Assembly (NCBI RefSeq): GCF_001050035.1
Contig: NZ_CVTA01000065.1
Span: 124,001-188,000, forward strand
DNA length: 64,000 nt
DNA from: Mycolicibacterium komanii
Lineage (GTDB): Bacteria > Actinomycetota > Actinomycetes > Mycobacteriales > Mycobacteriaceae
Reading direction: 5' to 3'
Both the position numbers and the translations under genes were made by a program. The notes beneath the pieces were generated by a model that was not told the DNA's origin, searched no databases, and saw only the letters and a list, made by a program, of their open reading frames with translations. How positions within the stretch are numbered: the stretch's first letter is position 1; each line of letters opens with the position of its first letter. Shown here piece by piece: positions 8,933 to 63,831 of the stretch.

Positions 8933-8985
8933 GTGATTTGGGTGCGCTAACGATCGCTGCGCGACCACTAGCGCACCCAAATCAC
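8933..8985. repeat. 53-nt intergenic hairpin, probable bidirectional terminator or small repeat
   Basis: Arms GTGATTTGGGTGCGCTA (8933-8949) and TAGCGCACCCAAATCAC (8969-8985) are perfect 17-base reverse complements separated by a 19-base loop containing GATCGCTGCGCGA. It fills the gap between two convergent stop codons (8928-8930 and 8986-8988). A 53-nt relative with the same layout is at 63779-63831. Confidence 0.85.
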
Positions 8986-9789
8986 CTAGATTTCCGGGGC
9001 GAACGTCGGCATCGGTTTGCCGTTCTTCCAGTGCTTCATCAGCGCGGCGGCCAGCTCGCGGTAGGCGGCCGCACCCTTGTTCTTCCGGCTGGCGAGCACC
9101 GACGCTCCCGAGGCGCTGGCTTCGGCGAAGCGGACGGTGCGCGGGATCGGTGGCGCCAGCACCGGCAGGTCGTAGCGGTCGGCGACGTCGAGCAGCACGT
9201 CCCGGCTGTGCGTGGTGCGCGAGTCGTACAGCGTCGGCAGCGCGCCCAGCAGTTTGAGGTCGGCGTTGGTGATCGCCTGCACGTCGGCGATGGTGCGCAG
9301 GAACTGCCCGACTCCGCGGTGCGCCAGCGTCTCGCACTGCAACGGGACGATAACCTCGTCGGCGGCGGTCAGCCCGTTGAGCGTGAGCACGCCGAGTGAG
9401 GGCGGACAGTCGATGAGCGCCACGTCATAGCGGTCGAGGATCTTGGCCAGCGCACGCTTGAGCGCGTACTCGCGCCCGGCGCGCATCAGCAGCATGGCCT
9501 CGGCGCCGGCCAGGTCGATGTTGGCCGGCAGCAGCGTCATTCCCTCGGGCGTGTCCACCAGGGCGGCGTCGGGTTCGACCTCGCCGAGCAGCACCTCGTG
9601 GATCGACACCGGCAGCTTGTCGGGGTCGTGACCCAGTGAGAACGTCAGCGATCCCTGCGGATCGAGGTCCACCACCAGGACCCGCTTGCCCGTCTCCTGA
9701 ATCGCCGCACCCAACGACGCCACCGTCGTCGTCTTGGCTACCCCACCCTTTTGATTGGCGACCGCAAGTACTCGCGTCACGGTGCCCAT
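8986..9789 (-). CDS. Orphan ParA/Soj-type ATPase (Rv3213c-like)
   Basis: 267-residue deviant-Walker ATPase: KGGVAKTTT with the signature lysine near residue 15, VDLDPQG (A') and IDCPPSLG (Walker B). Members position DNA or protein cargo by ATP-driven gradient formation on the nucleoid. No parB partner or parS-like repeat is nearby, so the cargo is unknown and it is not the chromosomal parAB locus. Start is uncertain between ATG 9789 and GTG 9780; neither has a clear ribosome site. It is divergent from the phosphatase gene at 9841 and convergent with the beta-propeller gene. Confidence 0.88.
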   Translation of the reverse strand: MGTVTRVLAVANQKGGVAKTTTVASLGAAIQETGKRVLVVDLDPQGSLTFSLGHDPDKLPVSIHEVLLGEVEPDAALVDTPEGMTLLPANIDLAGAEAMLLMRAGREYALKRALAKILDRYDVALIDCPPSLGVLTLNGLTAADEVIVPLQCETLAHRGVGQFLRTIADVQAITNADLKLLGALPTLYDSRTTHSRDVLLDVADRYDLPVLAPPIPRTVRFAEASASGASVLASRKNKGAAAYRELAAALMKHWKNGKPMPTFAPEI

Positions 9790-9826
9790 CGTTGCACGGG
9801 TCGGGACAGCACGACGCGACGTGCGG

Positions 9827-9832
9827 CAGAAT
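9827..9832 (+). promoter_or_regulatory. Weak -10 (CAGAAT) of putative leaderless promoter
   Basis: CAGAAT ends 8 bases before the GTG start at 9841, the same geometry as the other leaderless starts in this window, although the first base differs from TANNNT. Confidence 0.3.
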
Positions 9833-61876: not shown

Positions 61877-63249
61877 CCGACGTCGCATCGCCGGGGCCGT
61901 CCAGCGGCGACCACGGCACCGCCGCCGCGGTGGAACTACTGCCCGTCGCAGGGTTGCCCGAGTTCCGTCCCGGTGACGATCTCGCGGCGTCGATCGCCGC
62001 GGCCGCACCGTGGCTGCGCGACCAGGACATCCTCGTGGTCACCAGCAAGGTGATGTCGAAGTGTGAGGGCCGCATCGTCGATGCGCCGATCGACCCCGAA
62101 CAGCGCGACGCGCTGCGGCGCAAGCTGATCGACGCCGAGGCGGTTCGAGTGCTGGCGCGCAAGGGCCGCACCTTGATCACGGAGAACGCCATCGGTCTGG
62201 TTCAGGCGGCGGCGGGCGTCGACGGCTCGAACGTCGACTCCGCCGAACTCGCGCTGCTGCCGGTCGATCCCGACGCCAGCGCCGCGGCGCTGCAGTCGGC
62301 GTTGCGCGAACGGCTCGGCGTGACCGTCGGCGTCGTCGTCACCGACACGATGGGCCGAGCTTGGCGCAACGGGCAGACCGACGTCGCCATCGGCGCCGCC
62401 GGTTTGACCGTGTTGCACGGATACGGCGGTTCGGTCGACCGACACGGAAACGAATTGATCGTCACCGAGATCGCCGTCGCCGATGAGATCGCCGCCGCCG
62501 CCGATCTGGTGAAGGGCAAGCTGACCGACATCCCGGTCGCGGTGGTGCGCGGGCTGCGGCTGCCCGACGACGGTTCCACCGCGCGCCGTCTGGTGCGGGC
62601 GGGCGAGGACGACCTGTTCTGGCTCGGCACAGAGGAGGCCATCGCGCTGGGCCGCAGCCAAGCGCAGCTGCTGCGCCGCTCGGTGCGCCGGTTCTCGGCC
62701 GAACCGGTGGCGCCGGAACTCGTCGAATCCGCTGTGGGCGAAGCGCTCACCGCGCCGGCGCCCCACCACACACGGCCGGTGCGGTTCGTGTGGTTACAGG
62801 ACCCGACCCGGCGCTCGGCGTTGCTGGACCGGATGAAGGACAAATGGCGCGCCGACCTCACGGCGGACGGACGCCCCGCCGATGCCGTCGAACGCCGCGT
62901 CGAACGCGGCCGGATCCTCTACGAAGCACCGGAGGTCGTCATCCCGTTCCTGGTGCCCGACGGGGCGCACAGCTATCCGGACGCCGACCGCACCGCCGCC
63001 GAACACACGATGTTCACCGTCGCGGTCGGCGCCGCGGTGCAGGCGCTGCTGGTGGCGTTGGCCGTCCGTGGCGTCGGCAGCTGCTGGATCGGGTCGACGA
63101 TCTTCGCCGCCGACATCGTCCGTACGGAGCTCGATCTTCCCGCCGACTGGGAACCGTTGGGCGCGATCGCGATCGGCTACCCCGATGACGAAACACCGCC
63201 CGGCCCGCGTCCTCCCGTGCCGACCGACGGACTGCTGGTGCGCAAGTGA
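61873..63249 (+). CDS. fbiB: FbiB, bifunctional F420-0 gamma-glutamyl ligase and FMN-dependent reductase
   Basis: 458 residues. The N-terminal CofE-like ligase (about 1-245; VVTSKVMSKCEGRIV, TDTMGRAWRNGQTDVAIG) adds glutamates to F420-0; the C-terminal nitroreductase-fold domain (about 250-458) with RRSVRRFSAEPV and GVGSCWIGSTIF binds FMN and reduces dehydro-F420-0. Both ends overlap neighbours by four bases, giving an fbiA-fbiB-NUDIX operon. Confidence 0.96.
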   Translation: MTDVASPGPSSGDHGTAAAVELLPVAGLPEFRPGDDLAASIAAAAPWLRDQDILVVTSKVMSKCEGRIVDAPIDPEQRDALRRKLIDAEAVRVLARKGRTLITENAIGLVQAAAGVDGSNVDSAELALLPVDPDASAAALQSALRERLGVTVGVVVTDTMGRAWRNGQTDVAIGAAGLTVLHGYGGSVDRHGNELIVTEIAVADEIAAAADLVKGKLTDIPVAVVRGLRLPDDGSTARRLVRAGEDDLFWLGTEEAIALGRSQAQLLRRSVRRFSAEPVAPELVESAVGEALTAPAPHHTRPVRFVWLQDPTRRSALLDRMKDKWRADLTADGRPADAVERRVERGRILYEAPEVVIPFLVPDGAHSYPDADRTAAEHTMFTVAVGAAVQALLVALAVRGVGSCWIGSTIFAADIVRTELDLPADWEPLGAIAIGYPDDETPPGPRPPVPTDGLLVRK

Positions 63250-63782
63250 GCCTGCACGCCTCGGCCGTCGAATCGCTGACCCGTTGGCACGCACCGGACC
63301 CCGCACAGGACACCCTGCGGCACGCGGTGCTGGCGTTTCTGGCCGCCCGCTCCGATGGCTGCCTTCGCGAGTGCGCACCCGGTCACGTCACCGGATCGGC
63401 GCTGGTGCTCGACCACACCGGCACTCGGGCGCTGCTGACCCTGCATCCCAGGTTCGGGCGGTGGCTGCAACTCGGCGGGCATTGTGAGCCAACCGATTCC
63501 GATATCGTCGCCGCCGCATTGCGGGAGGCCACCGAGGAGTCCGGCATCGACGGCCTCATGATCGATCCGGTGATGGCCGCGCTGCACGTGCATCCCGTCA
63601 CGTGCTCGCTGGGGATGCCGACCCGCCACCTCGACATGCAGTTCATCGTGCGCGCGCCCGCCGACGCCGAAATCGTGGTCAGCGACGAGTCTTTGGACCT
63701 GCGGTGGTGGCCGTTGGACGCGCTGCCCGACGATTGCGATTTCGGCCTCACTCAATTGGCGGCGGCCGCCCGCGCCAGGTGA
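63246..63782 (+). CDS. NUDIX hydrolase
   Basis: 178 residues with a complete Nudix box GGHCEPTDSDIVAAALREAT-EESGI (Gx5Ex7REUxEExGU). Hydrolyses a nucleoside diphosphate derivative; substrate unknown. The GTG start overlaps the fbiB stop (GTGA), so the gene is coupled to F420 synthesis genes, though a link to F420 is inference. Its stop codon lies inside the left arm of a 53-nt hairpin. Confidence 0.92.
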   Translation: MSLHASAVESLTRWHAPDPAQDTLRHAVLAFLAARSDGCLRECAPGHVTGSALVLDHTGTRALLTLHPRFGRWLQLGGHCEPTDSDIVAAALREATEESGIDGLMIDPVMAALHVHPVTCSLGMPTRHLDMQFIVRAPADAEIVVSDESLDLRWWPLDALPDDCDFGLTQLAAAARAR

Positions 63783-63831
63783 TTTCGGTGCACTACCGAT
63801 CGCTGAGCGATCGATTCTGCACCGAAATCGC
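63779..63831. repeat. 53-nt intergenic hairpin, relative of the one at 8933
   Basis: Outer arms GTGATTTCGGTGCA and TGCACCGAAATCGC (12 contiguous pairs plus ends) and an inner perfect stem CGATCGCT-G-AGCGATCG (63797-63813). Same length as the 8933-8985 element, 41 of 53 identical bases, with two compensatory pair changes. Lies between convergent NUDIX and guanylyltransferase genes. Confidence 0.85.

Follow-up and report, generated by a model that had tools for sequence, protein, structure and literature searches.

Two hairpins are found in the 64,000-nt stretch of Mycolicibacterium komanii DNA analysed here (the window), each located between a pair of convergent genes (Table 1). The forward gene upstream of copy 1 is one which we take to be Rv3212-like, and the stop codon of the ParA/AAA_31 gene facing it (8986-8988; the stretch 8989-9789 was used in searches) abuts the hairpin. 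At copy 2, an F420 ligase/nitroreductase gene (61873-63249) precedes the NUDIX gene, the TGA stop of which (63780-63782) lies within the 5' arm of the hairpin; the gene converging from the other side, presumably ManB-like, has 63834-63998 called. The earlier note described the hairpins as filling these gaps; both do lie between convergent genes, but the fit is exact at neither, as gap 1 has 55 nt (8931-8985), of which the hairpin is the last 53, and gap 2 has 51 nt, shorter than the hairpin.

Table 1. Coordinates of the two hairpins and their neighbouring genes in the window
Feature	Position	Strand	Description
Gene upstream of copy 1, convergent	7716..8930	+	Weak PQQ_2/BamB-like match, under Pfam cut-off
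Hairpin copy 1	8933..8985	.	17-bp arms, inner hairpin GATCGCTGCGCGA
Inner hairpin of copy 1	8952..8964	+	GATCGCTGCGCGA
Gene downstream of copy 1, convergent	8986..9879	-	ParA/AAA_31 ATPase, start uncertain
Gene upstream of copy 2, convergent	63246..63782	+	NUDIX domain protein
Hairpin copy 2	63779..63831	.	Outer stem of 14 bp, mismatches at two pairs; CGATCGCTGAGCGATCG as inner hairpin
Inner hairpin of copy 2	63798..63810	+	GATCGCTGAGCGA
Gene converging on copy 2, 3' end	63834..64000	-	Runs off window end

Recomputation confirmed that each hairpin has 53 nt and that they are identical at 41 of 53 positions, with compensatory changes at pair 8/46 (G-C in copy 1, C-G in copy 2) and pair 14/40 (G-C to A-T), and with the core GATCGCTG(C/A)GCGA found at 8952 and 63798. 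Arms of 17 nt with 19 nt between them, claimed for both, hold for copy 1, while in copy 2 the unbroken outer stem has 14 bp and mismatches follow at pairs 15/39 (C-C) and 16/38 (T-T). The fold z-scores of the window copies range from -7.9 to -9.3 on either strand, none of 200 shuffles being equally stable, and the whole window gave no Rfam match at gathering score.

Both window hairpins belong to a dispersed family of about 53-nt elements at the 3' ends of genes. A covariance model, R1, was built from the two window copies and nine copies of the nearest genome (G001), so that the scores of the window copies (72.4 bits for copy 1, 71.7 for copy 2) are those of training sequences, matched by construction. 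Chance had been dismissed in the earlier note in favour of a repeat family, and this is borne out by at least 27 R1 sites in G001, of which 18 lie outside the nine used for training (150 of 6595 first-look candidates scored); the further copies it had called for number tens per genome in G001 and in G028, the latter with at least 29 sites. R1 matches were seen in at least 119 of 248 sampled genomes of the genus, where 22 first-look candidates were scored per genome; another genome search scored 46, and all copy numbers are lower bounds. With 150 candidates scored in each of three genomes, R1 found nothing at E 0.001 in M. triplex, M. intermedium or M. asiaticum, and in G084, from another family of the same order, the CGCTGAGCG inner hairpin is present in four of the six R1 matches read. 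Among the matches listed for paper texts with any of four sub-motifs, none concerned mycobacterial hairpins by its title or the start of its abstract; an excerpt of one paper reports the pair CGAAA(N)19TTTCG for Mycobacterium (PMC5217627).

Of 207 matches the best 150 were kept, and 89 sites remained once second-strand duplicates had been removed; dropping two whose flanks were identical left the 87 copies in which position relative to genes was assessed. The weaker G028 copies (L384-L396) fall outside this set. By the calls of a home-made ORF scorer, 55 copies are convergent, 25 tandem, 2 divergent and 5 genic, so that divergent gaps are nearly devoid of them; some of the genic calls resemble over-long ORFs by eye, and L328/L042 came out as divergent once and as tandem another time. 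The hairpins abut stop codons tightly, stop-side edges falling from -4 to +10 nt of the stop codon in 119 of 135 cases, and in tandem gaps the loop shows no preferred orientation (11 with transcription, 14 against). A search of 1.908 Mb of G001 with default filters, where divergent gaps total 45.5 kb and convergent gaps 13.6 kb, gave 14 sites (5 convergent, 6 tandem, 1 divergent and 2 genic), a density that may be too high because the stretches came mostly from contigs with a prior loop-pattern or R1 match (C122, C99, C36 and others). At the scan threshold, a long hairpin of any sequence is present in only 11 of 254 convergent pairs of G001, in stretches chosen likewise, which, together with the high rate of change per site, shows that most gene pairs do without one.

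The copies share a design in which an outer stem, G(C/T)GATTT...AAATC(G/A)C, is followed by a variable, mostly paired middle and an inner hairpin around CGCTGAGCG. No other inner part is as well conserved as CGCTGAGCG, at 78 to 100% for each position across 80 distinct copies. Mean fold energies of the 87 copies are -34.7 and -35.1 kcal/mol on the two strands, and there is no U-tract, a T-run of at least four being present in 2 of 174 flanks (12-13 nt). Covariation and identity were computed on copies of length 58, which removed 5 of the 87 and left 82, of which 80 are distinct. In these 80, 84.2% of cells are paired, while 300 shuffles average 74.6% and reach 76.3% at most, and 235 cells are doubly changed as compared with 97 (highest 124); 12 of the outermost 15 pairs are paired in at least 75 copies, and inner pairs 16-18 and 21 in 24 to 46. 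The sequences of alignment A3 were picked by R1 match, which favours paired ones. The covariation of the arms proposed in the earlier note is strong, also among orthologous copies alone: at one junction with 17 hairpins, the covariation score is 0.475 (0.159 shuffled) and 85 cells are doubly changed (31 shuffled), neither value being reached in 500 shuffles, and pairs changed on both sides exceed the shuffles only modestly (15 against 12.0; 22 of 500 as high).

Copies turn over fast, with rapid gain or loss. G001, the nearest relative, lacks both window copies, which implies that any one copy can be dispensed with on a short evolutionary time scale. At site 1, G001 has no hairpin and the two stop codons overlap in CTAG, a motif that flanks copy 1 on both sides in the window (8927-8930 and 8986-8989). 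A clean insertion with duplication of CTAG was considered first and then set aside, as flanking 4-mer repeats are not enriched in the 87 copies and 5-mers are so only mildly; CTAG is found on both sides in 3 of the 87. Locus L064, moreover, shares that hairpin end, and for these reasons the hairpin may just as well, or more probably, have been lost in G001. At site 2, where G001 likewise has none, G028 and G005 carry a hairpin, and a loss in G001 is therefore indicated. The loop at site 2 is reversed in G028 and G005, which suggested an inversion, but the window loop is a near-perfect palindrome and one base change can account for the difference.

These dynamics could also be those of a REP- or MITE-like mobile palindrome without a host job, found mainly at gene ends because insertions elsewhere are harmful, and with lineage subfamilies that amplify and decay, an explanation that we regard as possible though rather doubtful. 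Identity between copies (taken as the better of two orientations) is 0.773 within genomes (555 pairs; 0.854 in G013 alone), above both the 0.708 of orthologous copies in distant genomes (14 pairs; 20 of 21 orthologous pairs scored) and the 0.695 of non-orthologous ones (2414 pairs), as such amplification would predict. In its favour, too, one junction requires at least 10 presence/absence changes on a tree of 31 rows, with no clustering beyond shuffled labels (10.5). Of 67 genomes that have the gene, the best 30 supplied the loci of this junction; L456 and L460, cut by contig ends, were left out, and L187, L375 and L420 (a long branch), as carriers of copies, were included in addition. A point for the reading favoured below is that the place of the hairpin at an orthologous junction can be taken by a different, unrelated one (family likeness for L064, L066 and L076 was judged by eye); L454 was classed as such despite an R1 E of 2e-6, its palindrome being shorter and different, and L471 as without hairpin, the short hairpin there including coding sequence. 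Shared flanking 5-mers are somewhat above shuffles (14 of 87 against 7; 7 of 500 as high), but no clear target-site duplication signal is seen in 4-mers (33 against 28; 86 of 500) or 6-mers (3 against 1.5; 95 of 500), no clean insertion was demonstrated, and some empty sites resemble deletions. BLAST of two copies against phage and plasmid records gave no match. Moreover, a pure parasite need not keep its pairing, and orthologous copies do so at 62% mean identity.

In REP/RAYT systems, the genome encodes a RAYT (Y1 transposase), usually flanked by REPs, and the REPs carry a GTAG foot. The hairpins described here are like REPs in being short palindromes in tens of copies with lineage-specific sequence, and 82 of the 87 were called intergenic, as dispersed intergenic palindromes of that kind are; their consensus differs in having no GTAG foot. 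No intact RAYT was found in seven genomes, where PF01797 gave one partial match (profile positions 80-121, in a 143-aa frame of G013), as compared with matches in 5 of 14 control genomes, and strict REP/RAYT membership was rejected on this ground. Of the three roles put forward in the earlier note, the REP-like one in its strict form thus falls away, while the location agrees best with a role at 3' ends or one resembling that of a bidirectional terminator.

The third of these roles was a protein site. That the palindrome is a DNA-level site for a dimeric protein or a cruciform-binding factor, such as a collision barrier or a nucleoid site between facing genes, appears unlikely. The site of a homodimer would also show symmetric changes, and the element is symmetric, near-fixed in length, and conserved in its inner core and in the outer GATTT/AAATC; however, its mid-stem letters change freely while pairing is kept, 25 of the 87 copies are in tandem gaps and not between facing genes, and the positions in G028, judged by eye, show no clear chromosome-arm strand bias (KOPS-like). 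It is very improbable that the fold is kept by mutation alone, through template switching at imperfect palindromes in which one arm serves to repair the other, giving rise to apparent compensatory changes, for while the arms are very long and whole stem segments, often with inner positions, differ between orthologues yet stay paired, the mismatches at inner pairs 16-18 and 21 persist across the whole set and the stop-adjacent location is left unexplained.

A classical bidirectional intrinsic terminator has a U-run on both strands. The family shares with this class the use of one palindrome for two facing genes, but differs from it in having no such U-tract. TRIT, reportedly described by Gardner in 2011 with RNIE, is said to be a structured, covariance-modelled motif near M. 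tuberculosis gene ends; compared by description only, TRIT is like the present family in being a structured gene-end motif with a covariance model and unlike it in that R1 finds nothing in the three named Mycobacterium species. The TRIT motif has been put to use elsewhere, according to an excerpt (PMC3526491). Mycobacterial I-shaped terminators, which lack a U-tail, have been described within 50 bp of stop codons in a review whose relevant part cites Unniraman 2001 and Ahmad 2020 for them (PMC12288462). The hairpins described here are like these in being strong, U-less and within 50 bp of a stop codon, but whereas that part of the review treats I-shaped terminators as a structural class and mentions no shared sequence (PMC12288462), the present hairpins, whose terminator role is putative, constitute a single family by sequence, in which the inner core is conserved, the length nearly constant, subfamilies follow lineages and turnover is rapid. 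In M. tuberculosis, 121 termination sites have been mapped, and according to an excerpt the RNA hairpins that precede them have no conserved 3' motif (PMC10937400). A preference of bacterial stem-loops for convergent gaps and for the 50 bp after stops has also been reported; this is the same location bias, but in the part of the paper available it is a general statistic and not a sequence family, with the genus Mycobacterium represented by M. leprae and M. tuberculosis only (PMC1590033).

From location, fold and covariation, we consider it fairly probable that these elements form a family, homogenised within lineages, of 3'-end hairpins that lack a U-tract, work in both directions and serve as terminators and/or as barriers to exonucleases. 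Such hairpins probably mark or protect mRNA ends, and we infer that they would act as RNA. Whichever of the two genes is transcribed, the message would end in, or just past, a very stable hairpin that is independent of orientation, and because it is a palindrome, one short element could serve two facing genes. Acting as an I-shaped terminator, which needs no U-tract, the hairpin may halt RNA polymerase; alternatively, it may block 3'-to-5' exonucleases once Rho has ended transcription further on. Copies would be homogenised within a lineage by site-to-site copying (gene conversion or re-insertion), and would be lost via deletions across the palindrome. Several points count against this reading: the high rate of change per site and the scarcity of long hairpins at convergent pairs show that most gene pairs do without one; the excess of pairs changed on both sides at the orthologous junction is modest; the conserved inner sequence and the near-fixed 53-nt length exceed the needs of a simple terminator; part of the covariation could come from templated repair of imperfect palindromes, without selection; and mycobacterial RNA polymerase is said to need a U-tract, reportedly from in vitro work by Czyz in 2014.

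It is disputed how mycobacteria, in which canonical terminators are so few, end their transcripts, and hairpins that are present or absent between close relatives at the same gene pair provide a ready-made comparison. Their rapid turnover and apparent replacement by unrelated hairpins make the spread of 3'-end elements without an obvious transposase testable. Tentatively, and going well beyond the reading favoured above, the transcript-end signals of these actinobacteria might themselves be a dispersing element family, in which lineage-specific hairpins spread by copying between junctions although no transposase can be recognised, replacing one another at orthologous gene ends and removed by deletion while the fold is under selection, with the conserved CGCTGAGCG inner hairpin as a mark recognised by a protein or RNase. 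If this is true, the 3'-end architecture of these genomes would be rewired over short evolutionary times.

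The two imperfect palindromes of 53 nt in the window (copies 1 and 2; see the table) are identical at 41 of 53 positions, as the earlier note had stated, and the compensatory base changes that it described between them are present. On both strands, each copy folds much more stably than its shuffled versions, with z of -7.9 to -9.3, and an Rfam scan of the whole window returned no family at gathering score.

An inner-loop pattern search of G001, the nearest genome in the comparison, returned matching hairpins, and nine of these together with the two window copies were used to build a covariance model, R1. 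The earlier note had proposed a search with such a model for further copies, and 27 distinct sites were found in G001, 18 of them new; the 52 matches at E 0.1 or better reduce to this number because 25 match on both strands. In G028, 51 matches pass E 0.001 and correspond to 29 sites; the copy numbers for both genomes are lower bounds. A cmsearch over 1.908 Mb of G001, with E 1 as the cut-off, gave 14 sites. At E 0.001, R1 matched in 10 of 16 further genomes reached via named records, including Mycolicibacterium elephantis, M. neoaurum and M. rhodesiae JS60, and gave no match in M. brisbanense, M. triplex, M. intermedium, M. asiaticum, Mycobacteroides franklinii or a Rhodococcus. In even samples with few candidates scored per genome, matches at E 1e-6 were present at the genus level in at least 119 of 248 genomes and at the order level in at least 8 of 121. 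In G084, from a different family of the same order, the matches (L425-L429) have another stem, for example CAGGTTTCGGGGTGA...TCACCCCGAAACCTG; among six matches read, one edge lies 15 nt or less from a called stop in five, and four carry the exact inner part CGCTGAGCG, whose presence is partly circular because R1 itself contains it.

The hairpins lie at gene ends. The window and seven genomes together supplied 87 copies; 55 sit in convergent, 25 in tandem and 2 in divergent gaps, with the other 5 called as genic, and 119 of the 135 edges that face a stop codon fall between -4 and +10 nt from it. In tandem gaps the loop is oriented along transcription in 11 cases and opposite to it in 14. The copies lack a U-tract, a run of four T occurring in just 2 of 174 flanks. 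An independent scan of G001 for long hairpins of any sequence (79 stretches, 1.577 Mb) found none in divergent gaps, and densities per kb of 0.92 in convergent gaps (11 hairpins), 0.27 in tandem gaps (17) and 0.009 in genes (13); therefore, hairpins at gene ends are general in G001, and the window's family is one of several, with just 11 of 254 convergent pairs holding a long hairpin at the scan threshold.

Pairing of the stem is maintained while its sequence changes. Across 26 pairs in 80 distinct cores, 84.2% of cells are standard pairs, as opposed to 74.6% with partners shuffled, and 235 cells are doubly changed against 97, in shuffles that leave the relatedness of the copies in place. A stronger case comes from a single orthologous junction, between what we take to be a FAD reductase-like and a glyoxalase-like gene, where 17 loci with the family hairpin (mean identity 62%) could be aligned. 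Here the covariation score is 0.475. Shuffles give 0.159, none of 500 reaching the observed value, and slid partners give no more than 0.105. In 15 of 25 pairs at least one row has both partners changed, a count that exceeds shuffles only modestly (12.0; 22 of 500). RNAalifold, given no structure, predicted 19 pairs of the same stem, with the five outermost missing.

Presence of the hairpin turns over rapidly. In G001 it is missing at both window sites. Both G028 and G005 have a hairpin at site 2, and loss in G001 is therefore likely. Site 1 is empty in G028, while L064 has a related hairpin there; when the same gap beside the ParA-type gene was folded in each of 80 loci, L064, L066 and L076 held hairpins that are family-like by eye, L100, L108 and L114 held others, and many gaps were under 20 nt. 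In G001, stops of convergent pairs show a strong peak of 4-nt overlap (49 of 311 pairs), the arrangement also present in the empty state of site 1. In a tally of 30 loci at the glyoxalase junction, 14 have the family hairpin, 3 another hairpin and 11 none, and 2 are cut by contig ends. On a 31-row tree of the neighbouring protein, presence requires at least 10 changes, near the value for shuffled labels (10.5); well-supported branches alone force 6, and sister rows disagree (L465 and L375; L473 and L470). Apparent arm remnants in empty alleles (GCGATTTGG in L469, CTTCGGC in L465), and GTGATTTGG followed by an unrelated hairpin in L472, sister of L469, are short enough for chance.

Copies from the same genome have a mean identity of 77.3% (555 pairs), with 70.9% in G028, where the signal of homogenisation is weak, and 85.4% in G013, where it is strong. 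Six orthologous pairs drawn from the window, G001 and G028 come to 89%; orthologous copies of distant genomes (14 pairs only) are at 70.8%, and non-orthologous copies are at 69.5%. Copies are thus inherited over short times, but on longer time scales the set within each genome drifts as one or is replaced, presumably by either gene conversion or re-insertion.

Hairpins of the window's family and other gene-end features
Feature	Coordinates	Location
Copy 1 (site 1)	8933-8985	Gap of 55 nt; neighbours are a ParA-type ATPase gene and a gene with weak PQQ similarity
Copy 2 (site 2)	63779-63831	NUDIX gene on one side, opposite-strand gene on the other; NUDIX stop codon inside hairpin
50-nt hairpin	47318-47367	Convergent gap
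Long hairpin, other sequence family	49849-49909	Tandem gap
Long hairpin, other sequence family	51390-51446	Tandem gap
Short GC-rich hairpin, then TTTTT	13944-13972	Between convergent genes
Gap with a single arm	27625-27678	Convergent gap
Second family, ~60 nt	L218:13999-14060; L247:14553-14614; L196:13246-13309	G001
Second family, ~60 nt (L260, L269, L275, L108, L114)		

Other hairpins also occupy gene ends. Four in the window (from 49849, 51390, 13944 and 38056) are kept in G001, the first two conserved in place, unlike copies 1 and 2. The 50-nt hairpin scores 22 bits with R1 and is distantly similar in design; its flanks have no comparable junction in the relatives compared, G001 included. 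The single arm, when reverse-complemented, equals the left arm of L329, a long hairpin in G001, and is apparently half of a decayed hairpin from another family. The second recurring family, which starts (C)GCGAGCAG and lies at gene ends in several genomes, occupies in L466 the junction that holds the window's family elsewhere.

For mycobacteria, terminators lacking U-tracts have been put forward at positions up to 50 bp from stops (PMC12288462), and mapped termination sites of M. tuberculosis are described as having hairpins and no common 3' motif (PMC10937400). A study cited there, Czyz (2014), is said, from its title, to argue for a U-tract requirement. The window's family is like I-shaped terminators in structure and place; it does not belong to REP elements in the strict sense, a search of 7 genomes for the RAYT transposase having given a single partial match. 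No description of it was seen in the literature searched, as far as listings and text passages show, which says little about literature beyond that. We infer an RNA role at the ends of both transcripts. The family hairpin could act as a terminator without a U-tract or, alternatively, as a barrier that would protect ends made by Rho; that one of these two 3'-end readings holds seems rather probable, and the canonical hairpin followed by TTTTT in the same window is a useful contrast to this U-less family.
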